DNA of 64,000 bases from contig JABLTG010000052.1 in the NCBI GenBank assembly GCA_016618085.1, positions 42,356 through 106,355 of the forward strand, in the 5' to 3' direction. The notes beneath the pieces are model-generated. The model saw nothing but the letters and a program-made list of their open reading frames with translations, had not been told where the DNA came from and did no database searches. This DNA comes from Neovahlkampfia damariscottae (lineage: Eukaryota > Heterolobosea > Selenaionea > Neovahlkampfiida > Neovahlkampfiidae). The translations under genes were made by a program, and so were the position numbers. Positions 21,756-47,698 of the stretch are shown here, piece by piece. Numbering within the stretch: the stretch's first letter is position 1; each line of letters opens with the position of its first letter.

Positions 21756-23208
21756 TCACTCTTCATCCACAATCCCATAATCATTTTTCATTTCAGTTGT
21801 TCTTTCAAATCTTTCAACAACAATTTTTCCTTGGTTGTCATTGGTTAACAATTGAATTCTACTCATTCCTAATGGATCAGATAATTCAAGAGTGAATGAT
21901 TCTTTTCCTTCGAGAATATCTTCAATATTATGAATCACTTCGAAAATTGGATTTTTTTGATTTTCTTTCAACGATTTTGAATTCACATTTGAAATATAAC
22001 CTCCAGAATGTTTTTTAAGATTTTCATAAATTTCATCAATTAAACTTTTGATAGTTGTGAATTTTGGAGTACCTTCTGGTGATTCTAAATCAATTTCTGG
22101 AATGTTCAAACTGCATGTATCACTTTTTAATATTGTTCTTTTTAAATCTTCTTCTCCACAGCCGGTTAATGTCAAAATTAATCCTTTGGATTCATACTTT
22201 TTCATTTGGACTGCTTCAAATTGATCAAAGTGATACGGTTCTGGAGTGACCATTTCTGGAACATCAAATGATTTTTTGATCTTTTTTCTGAGTGAATAGT
22301 CTTGTAAAATGTTGATTGTGTTAAAATTGAAATTTGTTAATTCTAATTCTTTCATAACTTCCAACATGAATTCATCTGTTTTAGAAAATGTTCTGATGGT
22401 TGAAATATCATCATCTTCTTGTTTGAGAAATCAATATTTTCTTACAATCTGTTTTTTGTAAATTTACAATTACCAAAGATCCAAATTTGTTTTTCCCACA
22501 ATTCAACGTTGGAAAATCACAAGCAGGTTTCACTTTCATGCTTGTCCCTAAAACTAAAGCTAAATCAGCATTCATTGAATTATTTATTGCCTCTGAAATT
22601 TCATCATCCCACAATTTCTCTCCAAAATGAATGATTGTATCTTTCAATGCATTTGAGCATTCATCACATTTTCTACCTGTTTTATGAGTTGATTTTTTGG
22701 TAACATCTTTTGTTGTATCAAATGTTCGAACATAGATTTTTCCACATTGATCACAGTACTCCTTATATTTGTTCCCATGAATTTCTGAAATATTTTCAAG
22801 AGAAGTTCCTGATCGAAGATGAAGTCCATCAATATTTGTACTGATTATATGTTTCAAGTAACCCTTTTTAATTAATTCTGATAAAGCAAAATGTGAGAAA
22901 GTTGGTATTGCTTCTTCAACTCTAATTTCGTCAATTGAAACACCTGAGTCTTTTAAGGTCCAAAGACCTTTTGGACCTCGATAATCTTTTGGATTTTTTT
23001 TTTAGAAAAGTGATGATCAAATACCTGGTATATCAGCAGCGGTTGATATTCCTGCTCCTGTGAAAACTACAAAATGTTTTGATTGTTTAATTAATTGTGC
23101 AGTTTTTTTTGCTTTTTGTTTCATTTTTTCATCTTCTTCAATGTATTCCAACAATTCTTCTTCTGTTACATGTGACGTAGAAGGTGCCACAACATCTCTT
23201 TCAGTCAT
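21756..23208 (-). CDS. SIRT7-type (class IV) sirtuin, copy A
   Basis: Three exons. The NAD-binding start is FVVFTGAGISTAADIP, then after a roughly 37-nt intron DYRGPKGLWTLKDSG. Next come ISTNIDGLHLRSG (NxD), the catalytic His in ISEIHGN, zinc Cys pairs CDQC and CDEC, DTIIHFGEKLWD, LALVLGTSMKVKP and VIVNLQKT. DYRGPxGxWT and HFGE.. are class IV (SIRT6/7) marks, with the overall pattern closest to SIRT7. Likely a nuclear/nucleolar NAD-dependent deacylase. It has a long, less conserved C-terminal region of about 200 residues. It lies directly downstream of a second sirtuin on the same strand, suggesting an old tandem duplication. Confidence 0.85.
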
Positions 23209-23234
23209 TCTTTTTTGACAAAAAACTCTTGATG

Positions 23235-23239
23235 ATTGG
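23235..23239 (+). promoter_or_regulatory. CCAAT-type element before sirtuin A
   Basis: GATGATTGGTCGG, 27 nt upstream of the ATG at 23208, in the 80-nt spacer after sirtuin B. Confidence 0.4.
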
Positions 23240-23288
23240 TCGGTATTTTAAGATTTTATTTTTCAAATTCAGAAATGAACCAAGATTA

Positions 23289-24183
23289 TTAATAATATTT
23301 CATTATTTCCTTCATAAATTTGTCACAGTCCGAATGAATGGTAATTGAAGCCATGGTATCTTTCGGAGTATTTTGTTTGTTACAAATTATCAACTTGCCA
23401 CCTTTATTTAAGCAGTCATCAATCAAATCATAAGTTTCAGTCAAAGATAATGATGATCCCAAAACAATTATCAAATCAGATTTTAAGCAATGACTCCAAG
23501 CAGCATCATATTGTTTCTCCAATGAAGGAACGTGGGTATAGTCATTTCCAAAATTTACAATGACATCTCTCAACGATTTAGTTCCACAATTTTCACATAA
23601 TCTATCAGTTTGATGTTCAAAAATTCCATTTTGTTCATTTCTCACCATAAAATCTCTTTTGAACTCTTTCAAACAATTTCCACATTCTTCTATAAATAAA
23701 TTTCCATGCATTTCACATAAATTTCCATTTTCTGAAATTCTTTTGAAACCACTTTTGCAATGTAAATTATCAACATTTGTTGAAATCAAAAATTTTAAAA
23801 TTTGTTTTTCTGATAGCTCAAATAAACTTTTATGAGTAAATGAAGGTTCAAGAGACGCAAAATTTAAGTCTTCCAGTTTTGTATATTCTTCTCCTTTGAC
23901 TCTTCATTATTAAATTAATTGATGTTTACCTTTTTGTCCAAATTCCATTTGTTCCTCTGTAATCTGAGAGACCACAATTTACACTTATACCAGCTCCTGT
24001 GAGGAAAGTGATGTACTTTGAGTTTTTCATCACTTCCACAACATTTTCCATTTTTTCTTGGAAAAAGTCTTCTGAGTCTTCAAATTCAGTGATGTAGTCC
24101 ACTGATTTCTCATTTCTTAAATTTGAGTCAACATATTTTTTAAATTCTTCAATTTCTTCTTCCTCCAATTTTTGTTTCTTCAT
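23289..24183 (-). CDS. SIRT6/7-type (class IV) sirtuin, copy B
   Basis: Two exons with one intron at about 23900. Motifs: FLTGAGISVNCGLSDYRGTNGIWT, LISTNVDNLHCKSGF, catalytic His in CEMHGNLF, zinc Cys pairs CGNC and CENC, VIVNFGNDY, LIIVLGSSLSL and LIICNKQ. All NAD-binding and catalytic residues I can check are present, so it looks active. The N-terminal leader is acidic and coiled (EEEEIEEFKKYVD). It is diverged from its neighbour at 21756 yet shares class IV features, consistent with an ancient local duplication. There is no long C-terminal extension, unlike copy A. Confidence 0.82.
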
Positions 24184-33173: not shown

Positions 33174-33382
33174 TGCTCTTTTCTTTGTTTTTTTTGTGCA
33201 ATTTTTTATAAACCAGTTCTATTTATTGGACAAAAAAATGAATGTTCAATTTTATTTTTGAACTACATCTTGATGTCCTTATGATAGAACTTCCTGAATT
33301 GCTTATCGTGTCTCCAAAGAGTTGGATAATTAATGTTCTCTTTCATCAGTTTGTTAAAAACAACACTTTCCAAGGAATTTGA

Positions 33383-33387
33383 CCAAT
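33383..33387 (+). promoter_or_regulatory. CCAAT element before methyltransferase-ARMT1 fusion
   Basis: GACCAATGAAAATATG: the CCAAT box is 6 nt before the ATG at 33394. The frame extends five codons upstream through this element without an ATG, so 33394 is the chosen start. Confidence 0.45.
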
Positions 33388-33393
33388 GAAAAT

Positions 33394-35535
33394 ATGTTGT
33401 CTTACCAAATTTATCAAGAAGCTCTTTACAAACAAGCAATAAATTCAAAAGATGATTTATTAATAAAAATAGCAACAGAAACCAGAAAAAATATTTGGAA
33501 AGATAATTTTGGAACTCCAACAGTTGAATTCTTATTAGAATATGAAGAAGAAGTCAACAAATTGCAAAAACAATTCAATTTTGAACAAAAATTTGAAAAA
33601 AAGTCACAAAAAGTGATAGAACCACCAAATCAAGATGGGTTTATATCAACTTTAAACGCTATGGGATTCATGAGAGACCAAATAACAGACGAGTATTCAA
33701 AAGAATTTTTAAATTATTCAAAAAACAAAAAAGTGCTTGAAATTGGAGCAGCTTATGGTGTACTTTCTTTGGAATGTTTAAAAAATGGTTCTACTGTTTA
33801 TGCAAATGACTTAGATCCAAAACACTTGGCTGTGTTAAACAAAAAATGGAAAAAACAAAAAAATTACAATGAAAAGTCATTAATCATGGTTCCAGGTAGT
33901 TTTCCAAACGAATTTGATTTTCCAGAGAATTCATTTGATGCTATTTCTATTATTAGAGTTTTACATTTTTTTCATCCAAATGAAATTCATAATGCCATGA
34001 ACAAGTTATACAAATGGTTGAAACCAGGTGGAAAATTATTTGTTTTGAATGAAACTCCATTTCTAAAAAATACTCAAAAGCTTGTTCCAGTTTACGAAGA
34101 ACGTTTAAAAACAAAAAATGAATGGCCAAGTTTTGCAGAAGATATTTCAAAATATGTTGAAGTCTACAGTTCAAATTTACCAAAATTTCTGTTATTTTTT
34201 ACACCTGATCTTTTGTCAAGAGAATTGAAAAAATCAAATTTTAAAATTGAAAAAGTGTCATTTGTCAATCAAAAAGAATTTCCAAAGAATATGGTTTTAG
34301 ATGGAAGAGAAAGTTGTGGTGGAATTGGTATCAAGCCAGTTTTCAAAAAATCATTACCAGCTCCTCTAAAAGGTATTGATTCAAATTTCAATCAATTCAC
34401 TTATATTTCGATTGTCGAAAGAGTACCAAAAATTATTGATAGCATTATTGAAAATAATACTGATTATGAAGAAACTGTTAAAATTGAATTAATGAAATTG
34501 AAAATTTCACTCATGAAAGGTGAAAAACCACCAAAAAGAAATACTTCCAGAAATGAATGGAATTTATACAGAGAAGTATTAGAAAATTATGATGATTATA
34601 CGTGGTTGACATTTCCATGGTTTTTCATGGAAAATATGATTTATCATGAAATTCTTGAAATCACAAATTTTTCAAAGAATTTGATTGATCCTTTTGAAAA
34701 ACAAAAATCAAAAAGTTTGGAAGTTGTTTTAGAGAACCCAAAGATATTTGATATTTTGCATAAATTCTTGGAAAATGATAAAGATGGAGATGATTCAATT
34801 ATAGAATTTTTTGAACATAGTTTATGGGGAAATTTAGAAGATTTATCATTTTCAGGAGGAAATAATGAAAAATTGAAATCAGAAAATTTAAAATCTTTTG
34901 ATAAAATCATCGTAAATAACTCATACCAACTTGAGCATTTTATTAAAAATCTCAAACAAAACAGTGAAATTCATATTGTTCTTGATAATTGTGGATGTGA
35001 ATTATTATGCGATATGATCTTAGCTCATATTTTTATTAAAAAGAAAATTGCAACTTCAATTCAATTTCATGCTAAAAAATACCCAGTTTTTGTTTCTGAT
35101 GTAATGATCAAAGATTTTCATTTTACAATTAATCAATTGAAAAATCATAAAAATTTGAAACATTTTGGTGAAATTTTTGAAAATCATTTAAATTCAAATG
35201 AATGGAGTTTATTTGAACATGAATTTTATACGAGTCCTCTTCCTTTATGGGAAATGCCAAATGATCTCAGAAATGAATTTAAAAAAGCTGATTTAGTGAT
35301 ATTCAAAGGAGACGCGAATTATAGAAGAATTTTGGGTGATTTACATTGGGACTTTAATTCAAATTTTGATTCAATTGTTGAGCATTTTCCAACTTCAATT
35401 TTAAGTTTAAGAACATTGAAATCTGGGGTTATTGTTGGTGTAGAAAATGAAATGATTGAAAAAATGAACTCGGAAGATCCAAAATGGTGCGTAAATGGAA
35501 CAAGAGGTATAATTCAATTTTCAACAAAAAAATAA
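33394..35535 (+). CDS. Class I SAM methyltransferase fused to ARMT1/DUF89 phosphatase
   Basis: 713 residues, one exon. Residues ~105-330 form a class I methyltransferase: motif I KKVLEIGAAYGVLSLE, an acidic second strand TVYANDLDPKHL, motif near SFDAISIIRVLHFF, and post-motif LKPGGKLFVLNETPF. Residues ~340-713 match ARMT1-type DUF89 proteins end to end: LTFPWFFMENMIYHEILEIT, IDPFEKQKSKSLE, the metal site VLDNCGCELLCDMILAHIF, KKYPVFVSDVMIKDF, PLPLWEMPNDL, VIFKGDANYRRILGDLHWDF and LRTLKSGVIVGV. DUF89 proteins are metal-dependent damage-control phosphatases acting on sugar phosphates; ARMT1 was first named as a carboxyl methyltransferase. Here a real methyltransferase domain is attached. Both sites look intact. 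Substrates unknown. Confidence 0.85.
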   Translation: MLSYQIYQEALYKQAINSKDDLLIKIATETRKNIWKDNFGTPTVEFLLEYEEEVNKLQKQFNFEQKFEKKSQKVIEPPNQDGFISTLNAMGFMRDQITDEYSKEFLNYSKNKKVLEIGAAYGVLSLECLKNGSTVYANDLDPKHLAVLNKKWKKQKNYNEKSLIMVPGSFPNEFDFPENSFDAISIIRVLHFFHPNEIHNAMNKLYKWLKPGGKLFVLNETPFLKNTQKLVPVYEERLKTKNEWPSFAEDISKYVEVYSSNLPKFLLFFTPDLLSRELKKSNFKIEKVSFVNQKEFPKNMVLDGRESCGGIGIKPVFKKSLPAPLKGIDSNFNQFTYISIVERVPKIIDSIIENNTDYEETVKIELMKLKISLMKGEKPPKRNTSRNEWNLYREVLENYDDYTWLTFPWFFMENMIYHEILEITNFSKNLIDPFEKQKSKSLEVVLENPKIFDILHKFLENDKDGDDSIIEFFEHSLWGNLEDLSFSGGNNEKLKSENLKSFDKIIVNNSYQLEHFIKNLKQNSEIHIVLDNCGCELLCDMILAHIFIKKKIATSIQFHAKKYPVFVSDVMIKDFHFTINQLKNHKNLKHFGEIFENHLNSNEWSLFEHEFYTSPLPLWEMPNDLRNEFKKADLVIFKGDANYRRILGDLHWDFNSNFDSIVEHFPTSILSLRTLKSGVIVGVENEMIEKMNSEDPKWCVNGTRGIIQFSTKK

Positions 35536-46263: not shown

Positions 46264-47698
<1,435 letters not shown>

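Follow-up and report, generated by a model that had tools for sequence, protein, structure and literature searches.

A natural-looking single-chain fusion of a class I methyltransferase with an ARMT1-type DUF89 domain in Neovahlkampfia damariscottae

PANK4, in which a pantothenate kinase is joined to a DUF89 domain, is a known DUF89 fusion, and it presumably belongs to another branch of DUF89 than the ARMT1-type domain considered here. Like the protein described below, PANK4 naturally combines a DUF89 phosphatase with an enzyme of small-molecule metabolism (PMC4921024; PMC8669784), but its partner differs from the methyltransferase of our protein, and no fusion between DUF89 and a methyltransferase is described in the literature searched, as judged by titles and the openings of abstracts. 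The natural role of ARMT1 itself is unsettled. The human protein was first claimed as a protein carboxyl methyltransferase (PMC4741683) and was named accordingly, and was later assigned as a sugar-phosphate phosphatase of the DUF89 family (PMC8669784; molecule names in the PDB), a history that agrees with the remark on ARMT1 in a first, sequence-only reading of this DNA. Both yeast YMR027W and human ARMT1 are most active on fructose-1-phosphate, according to PMC8669784. The solved ARMT1/DUF89 chains are free-standing proteins of about 435–491 amino acids, with lengths of 439–472 among the PDB matches, whereas the domain reported here is fused behind a methyltransferase.

The fusion lies in a 64,000-nucleotide stretch of contig JABLTG010000052.1, which is called the window. 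An uninterrupted frame of 713 codons runs from the ATG at 33394 to the TAA at 35533–35535, and both Pfam families score far above their cut-offs within it, bearing out the sequence-only reading of a single intronless frame that joins a methyltransferase to ARMT1. The motifs quoted in that reading are present as well (VLEIGAAYG at residues 114–122, VLDNCGCEL at 529–537 and FKGDANYRR at 637–645). The gene is laid out as follows.

33394–35535, plus strand: whole fused gene, 713 amino acids, ATG to TAA, no intron needed
33386–33442, plus strand: ATG upstream of the gene and out of frame with it, opening an 18-codon frame that overlaps the gene start, read by eye
33394–33621, plus strand: N-terminal extension, residues 1–76, three helices predicted with modest confidence
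33640–34341, plus strand: class I SAM methyltransferase domain, residues 83–316, complete to the final strand and the DGRE end motif
34339–34353, plus strand: join, residues 316–320; the methyltransferase family ends at about 314–316 and ARMT1 alignments start at about 321
34354–35532, plus strand: ARMT1/DUF89 domain, residues 321–713, complete by Pfam, PDB match and model

At the base composition of the window, the chance of a given frame staying open over 713 codons is about 10^-26. The two domains are separated by about five residues, and the ARMT1 half opens with L/V-P-x-x-L, the Kovacikia protein and human ARMT1 aligning from about residue 321 likewise. Methionines stand in frame at residues 1, 90, 93, 165, 202, 300 and 367 and at later positions; as there are none between 300 and 367, no good start codon is available for the ARMT1 half alone. 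M300 falls just before the DGRE end of the methyltransferase, so that an ARMT1 protein started there would carry the last methyltransferase strand, and a start at M367 would cut off the beginning of ARMT1. The GC content is 27.7% in the methyltransferase half and 25.8% in the ARMT1 half, and the codon usage of the two halves correlates with r 0.88. The join is, to judge from the reading frame and the domain boundaries, a natural-looking single-chain fusion. That it is known here from the DNA of one gene in one genome speaks for an artefact of assembly or annotation, in which neighbouring genes were merged by a sequencing error or a mis-join; however, the openness of the frame across the join, the want of a suitable start for a separate ARMT1, the similarity of the halves in base and codon usage and the way in which the domains end and begin where their families do make such an artefact very unlikely.

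The out-of-frame ATG at 33386 could lower translation of the fused gene or could mean that the true 5′ end differs from the one given here. In two models the helices of the N-terminal extension fall at residues 2–18, 21–37/39 and 44–70/71, with block pLDDT values of 58–78 in one of them. For residues 1–76 the PDB contained nothing similar up to E 10, and they are absent from most of the aligned bacterial relatives of the methyltransferase half. An antisense frame of 85 amino acids lies over the gene start (33263–33520, minus strand), with no similar frame elsewhere within the window at a meaningful score.

The window as a whole has the appearance of a compact eukaryotic genome. Near the fused gene are BTB-TLD and EGF genes, and a nearby dihydrofolate reductase–thymidylate synthase gene is split by an intron-like 34-base GT..AG gap, the removal of which restores the frame. 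On the minus strand at 22414–23903, two adjoining frames match Sir2 (E 1.8e-26 and E 3.6e-17) and are likely a tandem pair. A beta-amylase of glycosyl hydrolase family 14 is found at 47057–47695 (E 7.7e-46); this enzyme is uncommon except in plants and some protists. With the bacterial code, ARAGORN found no tRNA genes in the window.

The N-terminal half of the protein is matched by the Pfam family Methyltransf_11 (PF08241) over residues 115–217, with 52.3 bits against a cut-off of 21.2, and by PF13649 with 51.5 bits against a cut-off of 27. Two of its sites were followed through an alignment of 22 rows (A4) and, for the second, a further one of 12 rows (A3).

33733–33759, plus strand: methyltransferase motif I, VLEIGAAYG, residues 114–122, conserved in A4
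33808–33810, plus strand: D139, the acidic residue after the second strand, in 21/22 rows of A4 and 12/12 rows of A3

Within motif I, which we take to bind SAM, G122 is found in 22/22 rows of A4, G118 in 21/22 and A120 in 20/22, and D139 presumably serves the SAM ribose. The half keeps 8/8 of the invariant and 10/12 of the nearly invariant columns of A4, the two departures being F223 for Tyr and S246 for Gly. It was modelled apart, from the 22 rows of A4, giving a good class I model over residues 1–327 (mean pLDDT 87.9) with 1456 Foldseek matches in the PDB at E up to 0.001. These neighbours are varied and include METTL6, phosphoethanolamine methyltransferases and many small-molecule enzymes. 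METTL6 is the top Foldseek match, at 18% identity, and matches this half at E 8.9e-4 by phmmer and E 4e-7 by profile; no METTL6-named family occurs among the Pfam or NCBIfam matches. The best solved matches of the methyltransferase profile are phosphoethanolamine N-methyltransferases (5wp5, E 5.4e-16), mostly over the SAM core, the top alignments ending at profile position 161–168 of 258; the Plasmodium-type chains 4mwz and 4iv0 reach position 225 of 258, with weak scores of about 31 bits. No NCBIfam family matched this half at its cut-off, the corrinoid-associated methyltransferase CpaM (NF043040) falling below with 51.9 bits against 180. Fold and family suggest that this half is most likely a SAM-dependent methyltransferase of small molecules.

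The family to which this half belongs is patchy and was otherwise found in bacteria, bacterial plasmids and phage, in collections of bacterial and viral sequences. A tblastn search of plasmids with the methyltransferase half returned 404 records at E 1e-3, of which 25 were listed and the other 379 counted only, the latter including all or nearly all of the 346 Enterococcus records; the best matches among those listed are from Pigmentibacter ruber (39%) and Piscirickettsia salmonis (36%). Nine phage records match, one of them closely (a Silvanigrella phage, 37%). In genomes the family is rare, with 1/398 in the phylum of Nitrosomonas europaea and 1/244 in the phylum of Nostoc, where the search reports two in-frame TAA codons in the match and the extracted frame of 254 amino acids is open. 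It occurs in 2/3 genomes of the order and 11/385 of the class to which the first genome match belongs; these 11 genomes are of 1.4–2.9 Mb, and 6/11 hold two to five matches. In a tree of 32 rows, the window among them (35 had been found; L092, L121, L098 and L099 were omitted, and there were no other eukaryote rows), the methyltransferase half falls in an 8-row set with SH-aLRT 88, the rest of which is bacterial, plasmid or phage.

The best members among the Pigmentibacter and Piscirickettsia plasmids, the Silvanigrella phage and the Pseudomonadota are 35–40% identical to the methyltransferase half over about 230 amino acids, and share with it the motifs TLNxMG, GAAYG, RVLHF and DGRE, together with TPY, which is TPF in the window. 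The bacterial proteins are of about 240–300 amino acids and, by their open frames, mostly free-standing, in contrast to the fused domain of the window. On L089 and L092, two different Piscirickettsia salmonis plasmids, a queuosine precursor transporter lies downstream of the methyltransferase gene, with one small hypothetical gene between them; the three are possibly a conserved cassette. Other relatives, with about 30% identity to the methyltransferase half, are domains of large synthases in Agrobacterium vitis and Rhizobium lusitanum.

L003, 7977–8762: synthase methyltransferase domain, Agrobacterium vitis
L091, 5965–6777: synthase methyltransferase domain, Rhizobium lusitanum

Each is followed in a very long frame by a carrier domain and a ketosynthase, so that these domains presumably act on carrier-bound chains, and unlike the fused protein neither has a phosphatase. 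O-methylation was considered from these synthase relatives as the reaction of the methyltransferase half and not adopted, as the C- and O-methyltransferase domains studied in PMC5772238 were not distinguishable by sequence. A second fusion of the family was found at L119:274–2262, in a genome of the class with matches in 11/385, where it stands behind an MFS transporter in one frame of 663 amino acids (MFS_1 E 8.8e-27; Methyltransf_25 E 6.2e-11).

The C-terminal half is matched by PF01937 (ARMT1-like_dom) over residues 342–686 with E 7.4e-61 and 206.5 bits, against a cut-off of 25, the match spanning model positions 4–306 of 311. Its best solved match is human ARMT1 (PDB 6umq, E 2.5e-46), followed by fission-yeast and budding-yeast DUF89 proteins. 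The homology with human ARMT1 runs along residues 321–713, end to end, with 31.8% identity over 440 columns and 169 bits, and a fragment from S. pombe aligns at 30.0% and 134 bits. Nearest by score, ahead of both, are Nostoc proteins (L010, 36.7%, 260 bits). The cyanobacterial and Chloroflexota homologues, such as those of Nostoc (L010) and Kovacikia (L001), have the same domain, the same key residues and a length similar to that of the ARMT1 half; they differ in being unfused, with no close methyltransferase relative in the flanks examined. The residues below were followed through an alignment of the window with 32 bacterial rows (A5), chosen by the author from 81 loci.

34984–34989, plus strand: D531 N532, metal site of the VLDNCGCEL motif (residues 529–537), in 33/33 rows of A5
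35098–35100, plus strand: D569 of FVSD, in 33/33 rows of A5, outside the scan patterns
35302–35325, plus strand: FKGDANYR(R), phosphate/metal motif, residues 637–644 (645), conserved in A5
35410–35421, plus strand: RTLK, residues 673–676, with R673 and K676 in 33/33 rows of A5, outside the scan patterns

In the phosphate/metal motif K638, G639, D640 and R644 are found in 33/33 rows and N642 and Y643 in 32/33, while N480, D483 and D574 are also identical in 33/33. The constancy of D531/N532 and of K638–D640 is partly a matter of selection, as the bacterial rows were fetched with two active-site patterns (the DN motif and the KGD.N part) that contain them. The human counterpart of D569 in the alignment is D291, which is changed in PDB 6umr (D291A). 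The DUF89 motifs are common to the window, human ARMT1 (6umq), S. pombe SPAC806.04c and SPCC1393.13 and S. cerevisiae YMR027W, and the residues of DN (D531 N532 of VLDNCG), FVSD and KGDxNYR are present in the window domain, human and S. pombe. Together with the conserved columns of A4, those of A5 agree with the earlier view that both domains are complete and both active sites, by sequence, intact.

A full-length model was built on A5, with the rows trimmed at the start; mixed alignments (A2, A6) had been set aside, as ARMT1 rows fell over the methyltransferase half in them. Its mean pLDDT is 62.4 and its reliable part is the C-terminal 300 residues or so, with block values of about 90 or more at 411–450 and 501–710 and lower ones at 451–500 and before 411; residues 321–402 are poorly modelled, the rows used being without this part. 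Since A5 holds ARMT1 rows only, the methyltransferase half of this model is unreliable and the packing of the domains cannot be judged from it. Foldseek matches 1–19 of the model are DUF89 proteins (E 1.8e-24 to 3.2e-7), including human, fission-yeast and budding-yeast structures and 1xfi, which we take to be a DUF89 protein. With the Pfam score and the human match, this places the C-terminal half within DUF89/ARMT1, as had been proposed from the sequence. The NCBIfam model of damage-control phosphatases, NF040824, scores 23.7 bits, far below its cut-off of 440, and appears to be a model for another branch, as the Nostoc protein L010 does not match it at all. By analogy with its characterized relatives, the ARMT1 half is most likely a divalent-metal-dependent phosphatase for small phosphoesters.

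The past of ARMT1 as a claimed methyltransferase raises the thought that one half might be regulatory, with carboxyl groups of the ARMT1 half, or of proteins, as targets of the methyltransferase. Methylation of PCNA and of itself has been reported for human ARMT1 (PMC4741683), and the methyltransferase half weakly matches the carboxyl methyltransferase CheR (profile against 1bc5, E 1.9e-4; Pfam CheR, E 0.033). Yet weak matches to class I enzymes are many, CheR being one of them, none of the protein carboxyl methyltransferase families reaches its cut-off, and later work, as cited in PMC8669784, assigns ARMT1 as a phosphatase, so that we regard a regulatory role as very unlikely.

The bacterial ARMT1 loci were gathered by a pattern scan of genome contigs, in which 156 matches gave 86 relatives and 80 kept loci; with Kovacikia these make 81. 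The ARMT1-type DUF89 loci (L004–L083) are scattered over Cyanobacteria, Chloroflexota, Actinomycetota (Glycomyces), Spirochaetota, Nitrosomonas and a few others, and no viral relative was confirmed in the viral contigs searched. In a tree of 80/84 rows (the partial rows L042, L049, L077 and L082 being dropped), the ARMT1 half has a very long branch (2.01 changes per column), and its placement is unsettled: two AU tests left standing both its grouping with human and S. pombe (p 0.92) and its grouping with 11 cyanobacterial rows (p 0.81), and the free tree search missed both of these better trees. Because the tree has only two eukaryote rows, we make no claim of gene transfer for this half. Its very long branch means that the substrate may have shifted.

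The two families were also looked for together in bacteria. A close methyltransferase relative (E 1e-5) was found at 0/81 ARMT1 loci, in flanks that extend to at most 8 kb (10 kb at the Kovacikia locus) and in many cases less. At E 1e-8 one was found in 0/25 ARMT1-bearing genomes, chosen by the author from 80 loci and of unreported completeness, with a query that does match in other genomes; conversely, ARMT1 was found at E 1e-5 in 0/12 methyltransferase-bearing genomes, again of unreported completeness, and in 3/3 control genomes. A looser methyltransferase profile gave two weak class I matches among the 4358 open frames of the 81 loci, at L022 (E 9.2e-6) and L023 (E 1.8e-6). These lie on opposite sides of ARMT1, at loci that are sisters in the tree; we read the matches as chance neighbours, though they count as evidence the other way. 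Of seven loci examined by their longest frames, six lack a same-strand frame within 100 bases of ARMT1, the exception being L018 with one at 64 bases. Within the limits of this sample, the lack of co-occurrence argues against an old shared operon, and it lends no support to a shared pathway or to an operon turned fusion.

The sequence-only reading had suggested a coupled reaction, for example on a phospho-metabolite or on the carboxyl groups of a protein; this is not supported, and the sampled bacteria offered no family link. In its two-step form, the methyltransferase would methylate a small molecule either while it carries a phosphate or after ARMT1 has removed it, within a single pathway or repair step. 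By established reasoning gene fusion points to functional association, the phosphoethanolamine N-methyltransferases that best match the methyltransferase profile act on phospho-bases, and small phosphoesters are substrates of ARMT1 relatives (PMC8669784). However, the phosphoethanolamine methyltransferases that align best do so over the SAM core only (positions 35–168 of 258), and the bacterial families have neither a common locus (0/81) nor a common genome (0/25; 0/12), which leaves such a step, in our view, unlikely. Still more doubtful is the specific idea that both domains process the same phosphorylated metabolite and that the early report of methylation by ARMT1 reflects a genuine connection, within a pathway, between methylation and this phosphatase family. 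The same lack of co-occurrence fits an accidental fusion, in which an intergenic region was lost and two unrelated enzymes were joined and kept as harmless, with no joint function. The join is very short, and the methyltransferase family plugs in elsewhere, in large synthases and behind the transporter of L119. What tells against accident is that both active sites look intact despite the long branch of ARMT1, which suggests selection on both halves; we hold accident to be a serious possibility, though short of probable.

We prefer to describe the protein as a two-domain enzyme, a phosphatase and a small-molecule methyltransferase brought together by the joining of two complete genes, and consider this fairly probable as an umbrella reading that the alternatives above subdivide. 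One polypeptide would then hold two enzymes, the N-terminal methyltransferase using SAM to methylate a small molecule and the C-terminal ARMT1 phosphatase hydrolysing small phosphoesters with a divalent metal, by analogy with the action of its yeast and human relatives on fructose-1-phosphate. Of the two genes that would have been joined, the methyltransferase one resembles bacterial genes. On the evidence of the DNA, both halves are expected to be active and one mRNA to span both, and the join would keep the two activities together. A methyltransferase family that was otherwise met here in bacteria, plasmids and phage thus appears as a fused domain in an apparent eukaryote, and the presence of ARMT1 and a genuine SAM methyltransferase in one chain would provide a testable handle on the small molecule that this phosphatase family deals with in some cells.
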